Shown in pieces: positions 4,762 through 7,642 of a stretch of DNA of 48,033 nt. A program made the position numbers and the translations under genes. Each line of letters begins with the position of its first letter. Positions within the stretch are counted from its first letter, which is position 1. Below the pieces are notes generated by a model. That model had not been told where the DNA came from and searched no databases. It saw only the letters and a program-made list of their open reading frames with translations. The stretch comes from Bacteroidota bacterium (GTDB lineage Bacteria; Bacteroidota; Bacteroidia; Flavobacteriales_D; Sanyastnellaceae), in assembly GCA_027624855.1 (NCBI GenBank), contig JAQBTQ010000019.1, forward strand, positions 1 to 48,033, in the 5' to 3' direction.

Positions 4762-5859
4762 ATGATTCAATCCTCACGCTTTCGTTCCATTCTCGGGATA
4801 ACCGGTTTCGCCCTACTCGGACTGGGATTGTGGTATTTCAAATCCCTACTGGGGCTTTTGCTTTTTTCCGTTGTTCTAAGCTTCGTTGGACGTCCGATTG
4901 TATTGCTTCTAAACCGAATCCACATTCAAGGCCGCAGCGTACCCTCAAGTGTTGGAGCAATCCTAGCATTGAGCTTGATGATTGGATTTTGTATTGGAAC
5001 CATTCAATTATTTGTTCCATTGGTTTCTGAACAGGTGCAATCTATTCGACAAATCGACCGAGAAAAATTGGAGCAATTGGGAGGACAAGGGCTCGATTGG
5101 TTAGATCATGAATTAGCCGCAGTCAATTTGAGTGGAGATGAACAGAGCAATAGTGCTTTCATTGTTTCGCGTATTCAAAGCTCACTTGAATTTAGGCAAA
5201 TAGGCCAGGTATTGACTGATTTGCTTTCAAGCATCGGAGACTTACTATTCGGGTGTTTCGCAGTTGTCTTTATGACCTTTTTCTTTTTGAGGGATGGGGC
5301 CCTTTTCAAAAAAATGGTTGAAGCCGTGACTCCGGATGAATTCACAGACAAAGCTGGAACAATCATGACTCGGACAAGCAAATTACTCACCCGATACTCA
5401 GGTGGACTCGTCATTCAGTTGATCATTATTACTTCCATTGTGTCAATCGGATTGACCATCGTTGGAGTAGAACATGCTTTCTTGATAGGCTTATTGGCAG
5501 GTTTATGCAATCTGGTACCTTACCTCGGGCCCATTGCTGGAGCCATTATCGGAATGACCCTCGCATTGGTCAATCCAACTGTTTCAGCAGAAAATTTCAA
5601 TGCCATATTCTGGAGTAGTCTAACGGTTTTTGTCGTTGCACAATTGGTAGATAATTTCTTTACGCAACCTATCGTTTTTGCAAATCGTGTACACGCACAC
5701 CCTTTGGAGATATTCCTAGTCATCAGCGTCTCCGGTAGCATTGGAGGCGTCATCGGAATGATTTTAGCGGTTCCGCTATACACTTTCTTTCGAATCATTG
5801 CTCAAGAATTATTTAGCGGCTTCAAGGTCATCGATCGTTTGACTCAAGGATTGAAATAA
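4762..5859 (+). CDS. AI-2E family transporter (PerM/TqsA type)
   Basis: Membrane protein of 365 residues with about eight predicted helices. Two pairs sit at the N-terminus, with a large amphipathic or soluble stretch at about residues 90-145. The conserved C-terminal helices include NLVPYLGPIAGAIIG near residue 250 and GSIGGVIGMILAVPLY near 330. Both motifs are typical of the AI-2E transporter family. Members export diverse small molecules or ions, so the family name does not show quorum sensing here. The ATG at 4762 is preceded by a -7-like TAATTTAG box at 4735-4742. The gene is monocistronic, between the divergent dtxR and pyrG. Confidence 0.85.
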   Translation: MIQSSRFRSILGITGFALLGLGLWYFKSLLGLLLFSVVLSFVGRPIVLLLNRIHIQGRSVPSSVGAILALSLMIGFCIGTIQLFVPLVSEQVQSIRQIDREKLEQLGGQGLDWLDHELAAVNLSGDEQSNSAFIVSRIQSSLEFRQIGQVLTDLLSSIGDLLFGCFAVVFMTFFFLRDGALFKKMVEAVTPDEFTDKAGTIMTRTSKLLTRYSGGLVIQLIIITSIVSIGLTIVGVEHAFLIGLLAGLCNLVPYLGPIAGAIIGMTLALVNPTVSAENFNAIFWSSLTVFVVAQLVDNFFTQPIVFANRVHAHPLEIFLVISVSGSIGGVIGMILAVPLYTFFRIIAQELFSGFKVIDRLTQGLK

Positions 5860-5912
5860 GGTGTAATTCTCCAAAAGATGTTCACAACCGCATTCAGCAC
5901 CATGATTCACCT

Positions 5913-5920
5913 TAACTTTG
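5913..5920 (+). promoter_or_regulatory. pyrG promoter -7 box
   Basis: TAACTTTG is an exact match to the Bacteroidota -7 consensus TAnnTTTG, 24 nt before the pyrG ATG. No TTG is seen at the usual -33 distance. The expected start point, about 4-7 nt after the box, falls in TATCCCGTAT (5921-5930), within the 5' arm of the hairpin described next. Confidence 0.55.
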
Positions 5921-5922
5921 TA

Positions 5923-5942
5923 TCCCGTATTTAGATACGGGA
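5923..5942 (+). promoter_or_regulatory. 5' leader hairpin abutting the pyrG start codon
   Basis: TCCCGTAT (5923-5930) and ATACGGGA (5935-5942) are perfect complements around the loop TTAG. This gives an 8-bp stem that ends 2 nt before the ATG at 5945. There is no T-run on either strand, so it is not an intrinsic terminator. It would occlude the ribosome landing zone of pyrG if transcription begins at or before the CCC. Regulatory role is inferred. Confidence 0.5.
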
Positions 5943-5944
5943 CC

Positions 5945-7642
5945 ATGCCTCATTCTGACTTCGACAAAAAAATCAATCCATCGGACCCTGTCCGCAATAG
6001 TCGTTACATTTTTGTCACGGGTGGGGTAACATCAAGCCTAGGCAAAGGAATTGTAAGTGCTTCGCTAGCCAAGCTACTGCAAGCAAGAGGTTACACAGTC
6101 ACCATTCAAAAGCTGGACCCCTACATCAATGTCGATCCAGGAACCTTGAATCCATACGAACACGGAGAGTGTTTCGTCACGGTTGACGGGGCTGAGACAG
6201 ATTTGGACTTAGGCCATTATGAGCGATTCTTGAATGTGCAAACCACTCAAGCCAACAACATTACTACGGGTCGGATTTACCAATCTGTCATAGACAAAGA
6301 GCGAAGAGGAGAATATTTGGGCAAAACGGTCCAGATCATTCCTCACATCACAGATGAAATTAAGCGTTGTGTTCAAATTTTGGGCGCAGAATCAAATTTT
6401 GATTTTGTCATCACAGAAATTGGTGGAACCGTAGGCGACATTGAGTCTTTGCCATACATCGAAGCCGTGCGTCAGATGAAATGGGAATGCCCAGAAGAAA
6501 CGTTGGTTGTGCATCTCACGCTCATTCCATTTTTAGCCGCAGCCGGTGAATTGAAAACAAAGCCTACACAGCATTCAGTAAAGCAATTACTGGAGTTTGG
6601 TGTGCAACCGGATATTCTGGTGTGCCGAACGGAACACGAACTCACAGATTCTGTCCGTTCGAAAGTGGCCAGGTTTTGCAATGTTGCTCCGAATGCCGTC
6701 GTACAAAGCATAGACGCGGAAACCATATATGATGTACCTCTATTGTTGATGGAGGAAAAATTGGATCAGGTCGTATTGAAAAAACTGGGAATGCCCGTAT
6801 CCGATGAGGCCCCCAACCTAAATTCGTGGAAGACGTTCTTGAATCACTATAAAAATCCGAAGTCAGAAATTAATGTCGGACTTGTCGGAAAATATGTTGA
6901 ACTCAAGGACAGCTATAAATCCATTGCTGAAGCCCTAATTCATGCAGGTGCACACCTAGAAATCAAAATAGAAATTGATTGGATCCATAGTGAATCAATT
7001 CAATCTAAAAAAGCCAAACAGAAACTCGGACACCTCGACGGCATCATTGTGGCACCTGGATTTGGGTCACGCGGAATAGACGGCAAAATTGAGACCATCC
7101 AATTTGCGCGAGAAAATGGCATTCCATTTTTTGGAATTTGTTTAGGGATGCAGTGTGCGGTAATCGAATTCGCCCGAAATGTGCTGGGCTTAGAAGGGGC
7201 GCACTCAACTGAGATAAAGGAATACACCTCGCATCCTGTGATTGATTTGATGGCTGAACAGAAGAGTATTCAAAGCATGGGTGGAACAATGCGTTTAGGC
7301 GGGTACCCATGTGATTTGTCACCTAACTCCAATGCGCGAAAAGCATATGGCTCTGACACGATCGAGGAACGACACCGCCACCGCTATGAATTCAATAATG
7401 CTTACTTGGCAGACTTTGAATCACAGGGCATGATTGCCACAGGAAAAAACCCAGATTCAGGTTTGGTAGAAATCATGGAAATACCTGAACATCCATGGTT
7501 TGTGGCAGCTCAGTTCCATCCGGAATATTCTAGCACGGTTGAGTGTCCTCATCCGTTGTTTATTTCCTTTGTTCAAGCGGTAAAATCTGGGTTAGGGCAA
7601 GTTGCGTCAACCGCCAAAGAATCGGCTACGCCGAATCTTTAA
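5945..7642 (+). CDS. pyrG: CTP synthase
   Basis: Makes CTP from UTP, ATP and glutamine in the cytoplasm, the last step of pyrimidine nucleotide synthesis. The protein has 565 residues, against about 545 for the family; the extra length is a 20-residue polar N-terminus. The synthetase domain (about 20-290) has P-loop GGVTSSLGKG at 26-35, LDPYINVDPGTL and EIGGTVGDIE. The class I glutamine amidotransferase domain (about 310-550) has nucleophile motif GICLGMQ near 396 and the HPE of AAQFHPEYSS near 524. The start is the ATG at 5945 because the TTG frame extension reads through the predicted promoter and hairpin. A 5' hairpin directly upstream suggests control by nucleotide pools. Confidence 0.96.
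   Translation: MPHSDFDKKINPSDPVRNSRYIFVTGGVTSSLGKGIVSASLAKLLQARGYTVTIQKLDPYINVDPGTLNPYEHGECFVTVDGAETDLDLGHYERFLNVQTTQANNITTGRIYQSVIDKERRGEYLGKTVQIIPHITDEIKRCVQILGAESNFDFVITEIGGTVGDIESLPYIEAVRQMKWECPEETLVVHLTLIPFLAAAGELKTKPTQHSVKQLLEFGVQPDILVCRTEHELTDSVRSKVARFCNVAPNAVVQSIDAETIYDVPLLLMEEKLDQVVLKKLGMPVSDEAPNLNSWKTFLNHYKNPKSEINVGLVGKYVELKDSYKSIAEALIHAGAHLEIKIEIDWIHSESIQSKKAKQKLGHLDGIIVAPGFGSRGIDGKIETIQFARENGIPFFGICLGMQCAVIEFARNVLGLEGAHSTEIKEYTSHPVIDLMAEQKSIQSMGGTMRLGGYPCDLSPNSNARKAYGSDTIEERHRHRYEFNNAYLADFESQGMIATGKNPDSGLVEIMEIPEHPWFVAAQFHPEYSSTVECPHPLFISFVQAVKSGLGQVASTAKESATPNL

Follow-up and report, generated by a model that had tools for sequence, protein, structure and literature searches.

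A predicted C-start hairpin at the pyrG start codon as a probable feedback control that reduces CTP synthase at high CTP

In the case of E. coli pyrC and pyrD, a hairpin blocks the Shine-Dalgarno site of the mRNA, and the pyrG transcript of B. subtilis begins with a run of G (GGGC). As described in an excerpt of PMC7818426, a low GTP/CTP ratio leads pyrC and pyrD to be transcribed from a C, and the hairpin of that mRNA keeps the ribosome off; E. coli pyrG, according to the same excerpt, seems to be regulated by start-site switching in the manner of pyrC and pyrD. For pyrG of B. subtilis and other Gram-positive organisms, an excerpt of PMC4448216 describes slippage at the transcript start that adds G's when pyrimidines are scarce and so prevents attenuation, while UTP-sensitive reiterative initiation at a pyrimidine run is described for E. 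coli carAB, pyrBI, codBA and upp (PMC6245113, excerpt). The Bacteroidota are a phylum without Shine-Dalgarno sites, and translation in F. johnsoniae tends to be weaker where the mRNA is structured close to the start codon (PMC6847099, excerpt). The two precedents named in the original prediction, pyrC/pyrD in E. coli and a different, Gram-positive pyrG attenuator, agree with these excerpts (PMC7818426 and PMC4448216, respectively). The idea of a start switch at pyrG is partly anticipated by the statement on E. coli pyrG (PMC7818426, excerpt); a search of the open literature by titles and abstract openings, with most subscription journals outside it, found no description of pyrG control or of such a leader in Bacteroidota.

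The window examined here, a stretch of 48,033 nucleotides from a Bacteroidota bacterium of the Sanyastnellaceae, contains pyrG preceded by a short leader, the features of which are as follows.

5878-5886, forward strand: upstream 9-mer ATGTTCACA, beginning 35 nt before the -7 box; may be outside the switch
5913-5920, forward strand: -7 promoter box TAACTTTG of the TAnnTTTG type, read in the sequence; box type (some degenerate) kept in the family
5923-5930, forward strand: 5' arm of the hairpin, TCCCGTAT, from sequence, fold and inverted-repeat search
5924-5926, forward strand: C run (C1 to C3), predicted transcription start (+1 at C5924 or C5925) from published -7 box spacing
5927, forward strand: G5927, putative alternative start at low CTP, A5929 being another candidate
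5931-5934, forward strand: hairpin loop TTAG (3-26 nt in relatives)
5935-5942, forward strand: 3' arm of the hairpin, ATACGGGA, from sequence, ending 2 nt before ATG; complementary arm kept in the family
5945-7642, forward strand: pyrG, CTP synthase, 565 aa, ATG at 5945, from NCBIfam and Pfam profile matches

The pyrG reading frame scores 798.3 bits against the NCBIfam profile TIGR00337 (cut-off 462.75) and is the sole CTP_synth_N match in the source assembly (2.29 Mb, 96.6% complete). Upstream of it lies a permease-like gene (4762-5859) for which all profile matches, including that to the AI-2E family transporter, were below their cut-offs, and between the two the order is TAACTTTG, TAT, CCCGTAT, TTAG, ATACGGGA, CC and ATG. 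The -7 box named in the original prediction fits TAnnTTTG, and the 8-bp hairpin that this prediction placed 2 nt before the start codon is present, its stem running from T5923-A5942 to T5930-A5935 with CC between stem and ATG; it is the only inverted repeat of at least 6 reported in 5860-5960. At the protein level, the usual RYIFVTGG of PyrG is preceded, both in the window and across its genus, by a variable N-terminal segment of some 19 or more residues (5945-6001 in the window). Taken by themselves, the box and hairpin of the window are within chance expectation: TAACTTTG occurs once in the window against 1.36 expected, TAnnTTTG 13 times against 28 expected, and the fold of the leader (70 nt, window alone) has a z of -1.23, with 30 of 200 shuffles equally good. 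The leader stands above chance because it is conserved in the family. No sigma-70-type promoter was found in 5800-6100, and reading by eye showed no -33 TTTG at the usual spacing upstream of the pyrG box. Terminator-like sites in 5800-6100 numbered zero, by which an attenuator with terminator was rejected, in keeping with the claim that the Gram-positive attenuator is a different device. A known Rfam element was likewise rejected, none reaching its cut-off in 5700-6100; the one Rfam 15 match there at E up to 10 scored 13.7 bits against a cut-off of 40 and lies on the opposite strand (5979-6036).

The TAnnTTTG box is placed at -12 to -5 in F. psychrophilum (PMC9723704, excerpt) and is centred at -7 in B. 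thetaiotaomicron (PMC7366714, excerpt). Because of these published positions we predict +1 to be C5925 or C5924, and by the Flavobacterium psychrophilum spacing the default would be C5925. It is reasonable to postulate that transcription of pyrG would start within the C run, which is fixed 3 nt past the -7 box. When CTP is plentiful, polymerase would start at the first C's, giving an mRNA with the full 5' arm CCCGUAU and hence a hairpin abutting the start codon, and in a phylum without Shine-Dalgarno sites such a hairpin may block ribosome entry, with less CTP synthase as the result. With CTP scarce in relation to GTP, initiation would move on to C3 or G5927, giving a transcript that lacks the stem's GC base and leaves the start codon open. 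We assign a probability of roughly 0.6 to this CTP-sensitive choice of start coupled to blocked translation initiation, akin to pyrC and pyrD and acting at pyrG; the start points, their CTP dependence and the translation block are the parts of the mechanism that we infer.

The predicted cost of opening the initiation region (computed for the window over -12 to +13) is 10.2, 7.5, 6.7, 6.2 and 5.9 kcal/mol for starts at C5924, C5925, C5926, G5927 and A5929, respectively. The original claim that a start at G5927 or A5929 frees the start codon stands insofar as the cost does fall to the last two values, and needs amending in that the main drop already occurs from C5924 to C5925, the largest loss of structure in the window and the step at which the first C counts most. 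If C5925 is the default, the hairpin is already without one GC pair and a G5927 start lowers the cost by only about 1.3 kcal/mol more over the same span. Family medians over 96 leaders (computed over -6 to +9) are 8.7, 7.8, 5.6, 3.4, 2.9, 2.8 and 2.8 kcal/mol for starts at Y, C1, C2, C3, G4, T5 and A6, such that nearly the whole drop falls inside the C run and the curve is flat from G4 on; moving from C1 to G4 lowers the cost by more than 1 kcal/mol in 94 of the 96.

These 96 leaders come from a survey of the window's family, in which PF06418 was detected in 99 of 114 genomes and 97 pyrG starts were obtained, two other matches (a fragment and a broken copy) being left out. All but one of the 97 fitted the search expression; the exception, L154, is excluded from the 96, yet has CCCGTAT after a degenerate box. 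The set spans 19 genera, and the statistics given for it ignore the kinship of its rows. Box and [CT]CCG are separated by exactly 3 nt in 96/96 leaders, where 2-4 were permitted, with CCCG in 94 and TCCG in 2. Within 40 nt past CCCG, CGGG is found in 81/96 against 21.0 expected from dinucleotide shuffles, the exact tetramer being absent from 15, and an unbroken stem of at least 5 pairs from C1 is found in 65/96 against 15.6 expected from shuffles of the same kind. With the best partner taken per row and the first in-frame ATG as start codon, the 3' arm stops 0-3 nt short of ATG in 72 leaders and the hairpin encloses ATG in 24, a split that may be 75 and 21 because L160, L161 and L177 have a second in-frame ATG 2 nt past the arm, like their sisters.

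Pairs were counted by script and no covariance model was built because a MAFFT alignment (44 of 55 distinct family leaders) failed to align all 3' arms; shuffle controls were added because the script takes the best partner per row and is thereby biased towards pairing. The mean pairing score of the family leaders is 16.3 against 10.4 in shuffles, and 5.9% of shuffled rows score at least as high as the row from which they were made. In the 39 distinct stems, pair 1 comprises 32 C-G, one U-A, one U-G and 5 mismatches; pair 2 is missing from a single stem, and pairs 3 and 4 do not vary. Pair 5 is U-A in 25, U-G in 7 and a mismatch in 7, pair 6 is A-U in 31, U-A in 2 and a mismatch in 1, pair 7 is U-A in 10, A-U in 12 and a mismatch in 4, and pair 8 is U-A in 17, C-G in 2, G-U in 2 and G-C in 1. 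Compensatory changes thus appear at pairs 1, 6, 7 and 8, the kind of covariation that the original prediction proposed to look for in relatives. Its central proposal, that a hairpin made by a C-start blocks the start codon, holds on the structural side, where box, fixed spacing, hairpin with its 3' arm, conservation, compensatory changes and the drop in predicted energy support it; the CTP-dependent choice of start is what we infer beyond them. One might instead attribute the leader to chance or to shared descent without function, as the fold of the window's leader, taken alone, is ordinary and the rows are related by descent. Fixed spacing, the excess of stems and compensatory changes over 19 genera, joined by the arm-target pairing and codon choice of further families described below, make this exceedingly improbable.

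An inverted repeat over the start point is typical of operators. The repeat here does overlie the predicted start point, and in part of the leaders a further 9-mer stands upstream at a fixed distance, as might be expected were a protein to bind the repeat, either at a DNA operator or as an RNA-binding regulator. We consider this very improbable, as hairpin loops of 3-26 nt in the family are at odds with the constant spacing that a dimer site needs, and the complementary stretch lies in coding sequence in other families; the variable loop points to RNA rather than to a DNA operator, a reading rejected on that ground.

The leader was also sought at other genes. In the source genome TANNTTTGNNNCCCG has 8 matches (reversed control 4), among which, by eye, pyrG alone has this leader; of the other seven, three lie directly before tRNA genes and one lies before an nqrA-like gene (a call resting on its first 60 residues). 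The tRNA genes for Val, Arg and Glu in the source genome (L182, L184, L186) have TAnnTTTG and a C run in front of them. Over the 114 family genomes, the expression TTTGNNNCCCGN{3,30}CGGGN{0,4}ATG gave 127 matches (reversed control 30), with overlapping pairs in two places, and 58 of the 127 are pyrG by coordinates. Reading 20 of the 69 non-pyrG matches by eye placed 5 at tRNA genes and showed no regulated-gene ORF at the other 15; tRNA promoters explain the excess of 69 over the 30 of the control only partly. In 31 genomes of a family in our sample that we term Sphingobacteriaceae-like (f3), a name suggested by Pedobacter and Sphingobacterium loci that share its leader, TANNTTTGNNNCCCGTA has 64 matches, 29 of them pyrG (29/30 genomes with pyrG), and the other 35 are about equal to the reversed control of 36. 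A regulon with a shared leader was rejected, no second gene with it having been found among the matches examined.

Outside the window's family, the comparison set comprised named genomes, a class sample and a phylum sample of pyrG leaders. The box followed after 3 nt by NCC[GA] occurs in 52/75 named leaders, 16/37 of the class and 11/27 of the phylum, counts in which some matches are plainly chance ones elsewhere in the stretch and those of the phylum read CCCA or TCCA. By family, a CCCG start was found in 2/15 rows of f6 in the class sample (Flavobacterium-like by reading) and in 0/30 of the Bacteroidales-like family f4. A CGGG partner in the leader is at chance level outside the window's family (3/77 against 2.3 expected), and the partner was therefore sought in the coding sequence. 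In the Sphingobacteriaceae-like and Crocinitomicaceae-like families CCCG at the 5' end has no partner in most of the leaders and is complementary to the Val-Thr-Gly codons of pyrG. The Thr of Phe-Val-Thr-Gly-Gly is ACG in 29/30 Sphingobacteriaceae-like genes against 15% of Thr codons elsewhere in the same genes (binomial 1.6e-23, which ignores descent), while in the window's family, where the partner lies in the leader, that Thr is ACG in 16/94 against 24% elsewhere. The Crocinitomicaceae-like set (24 genes) uses GTA for Val in 22 (26% elsewhere), ACC for Thr in 13 (19% elsewhere) and GGG for Gly in 12 (11% elsewhere), the leader CCCG(TA)GTTAC standing opposite GTAAC-CGGGG.

A codon count over all rows, less duplicates (9 of them outside the family) and short rows (2 outside it), extends this association. 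Leaders reading CCC[GA][TA]A[AC] have Thr ACG in 49/53 and Val GTT in 49/53, the four non-ACG rows being L317 and three CCCATAA leaders that have the start codon itself as partner (L073, L233, L242). Leaders with CCCGTAGTTAC have Val GTA in 20/20 and Thr ACG in 0/20, two CCCGG leaders accompany GTA-ACC, and Thr is ACG in 10/90 rows without CCC and in 16/95 of the window's family. On these counts, synonymous codon choice tracks the leader variant. The start codon lies inside the predicted 3' arm in L101 as well as in L233, L242 and L073, and in L044 and L070, both outside the family, the predicted 3' arm stands before ATG. Mean pairing z is -2.1 for 95 CCC leaders (which include four window-family rows, L022-L024 and L180, and some genomes twice) against 0.02 for 61 others. 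In a permutation test with those four rows dropped and 101 rows reduced to 34 distinct arms, true arm-target pairs had a mean of -11.7 against -9.07 kcal/mol (sd 0.33) when permuted, with 0/20000 permutations as low; the true partner had a median rank of 3.5 of 34 and was among the best three for 13/34 arms. Window-family arms on Sphingobacteriaceae-like targets gave -10.5 against -12.1 with the targets' own arms, and the shared CCCG accounts for part of the codon pairing. A good partner was not found for L228, nor for most phylum leaders with CCCA or TCCA. In the codon-partner cases AUG falls in the loop, and the predicted opening cost varies little with the start, going from 3.3 to 2.7 kcal/mol in Sphingobacteriaceae-like (n=30) and from 6.7 to 4.5 in Crocinitomicaceae-like rows (n=26), with no fall (2.9 to 3.2) in the other 45 rows outside the family. 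The single leader hairpin of the original prediction accordingly describes the window's family; beyond it the C-start is wider, and in other families its partner lies in pyrG codons. That the C-start pairs with early pyrG codons in related families suggests one principle with a mobile partner arm.

The C run itself lends force to the main rival explanation, by which high CTP would cause stuttering on CCC and yield aborted or C-extended transcripts, that is, reiterative initiation and not a choice of start; extended C tails could pair further with G runs. The run does sit at the same position in 96/96 family leaders and occurs in other families too, mostly without a leader partner, and G runs of at least 4 are present in the target codons of 21/27 Crocinitomicaceae-like rows, against 21/97 in the window's family and 3/30 in Sphingobacteriaceae-like ones. 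Slippage has moreover been reported for pyrG in Gram-positives, yet in that known case G's are added under pyrimidine scarcity (PMC4448216, excerpt). Since the 3' arm in the family mostly stops at CGGG, and the GTA of the 5' arm is likewise conserved and mostly paired, we hold slippage to be unlikely. A constitutive 5' stem, which would protect the mRNA end or fix translation at a low level with no sensing at all, accords with a stem that begins at or a few nt from the predicted 5' end in the family. Such a stem would leave the association of the C-start with pyrG unexplained, and a protective stem could pair anywhere, yet several lineages have the partner placed at the initiation region or among the early codons; we judge a constitutive stem distinctly unlikely. 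The CTP-sensitive choice of start is the reading that we prefer to both.

Several other features were observed upstream of pyrG in this set. A 9-mer, [AT]T[GC]T[TC][CA]ACA, which we take to resemble a DnaA box, lies upstream of the -7 box in 26/96 family leaders against 1.5 expected, with 24 matches 35-37 nt before the box; in the window it stands at 5878-5886. It is also found in 13/30 Sphingobacteriaceae-like leaders (L304-L333) against 1.1 expected, 9 matches being at exactly 35, and in 1/25 Crocinitomicaceae-like leaders against 0.6 expected. Upstream of pyrG in f4 (L274-L303), 22/30 stretches carry GACC 3 nt past a TAnnTTTG box, with GGTC no more than 70 nt further on; the two could form another 5' hairpin in this position, an arrangement seen by eye also in L053, L061 and L062. 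Some phylum members outside the class (L207-L211, L213, L215) have another conserved pyrG start, TATnTTTT-nCA-TCCATCAACT.

It may be that pyrG mRNA senses CTP through its own 5' end across much of Bacteroidia, an old C-start acting as a built-in antisense to the initiation region whose partner has moved in several lineages, among leader, start codon and synonymous positions of Phe-Val-Thr-Gly, with codon choice shaped by feedback. We give this broader proposal an even chance. If true, a protein-free feedback circuit is found again in a phylum whose promoter differs and which lacks Shine-Dalgarno sites, the sensing end having been retained while the blocking end shifted, in some lineages as far as the coding sequence. 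It would also provide a CTP-responsive part for use in these bacteria.

Among the known systems, carAB, pyrBI, codBA and upp share with this locus a stretch of pyrimidines at the very start of the transcript, which there responds to its own nucleotide (PMC6245113, excerpt); theirs is a T run, unlike the C run and start-codon hairpin found here. The B. subtilis pyrG attenuator has the same gene and ligand and senses at the transcript start (PMC4448216, excerpt), unlike it in that the start region here is TATCCCG with no G run and no terminator was found in 5800-6100. E. coli pyrG has in common both the gene and, by one paper's statement, the proposed principle (PMC7818426, excerpt). The closest resemblance in layout is to pyrC and pyrD of E. 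coli and Salmonella, in that a C stands at the predicted +1 and a purine where transcription could start follows 2-3 nt later (CCCG in 94 and TCCG in 2 of 96) and a 5' hairpin containing the first C's lies, here by prediction and conservation, over the initiation region. In contrast to those two, the gene here is pyrG, maker of CTP itself, its promoter is of the TAnnTTTG type and it has no Shine-Dalgarno site, and the 3' arm abuts or encloses ATG, or its complement lies in the early codons.
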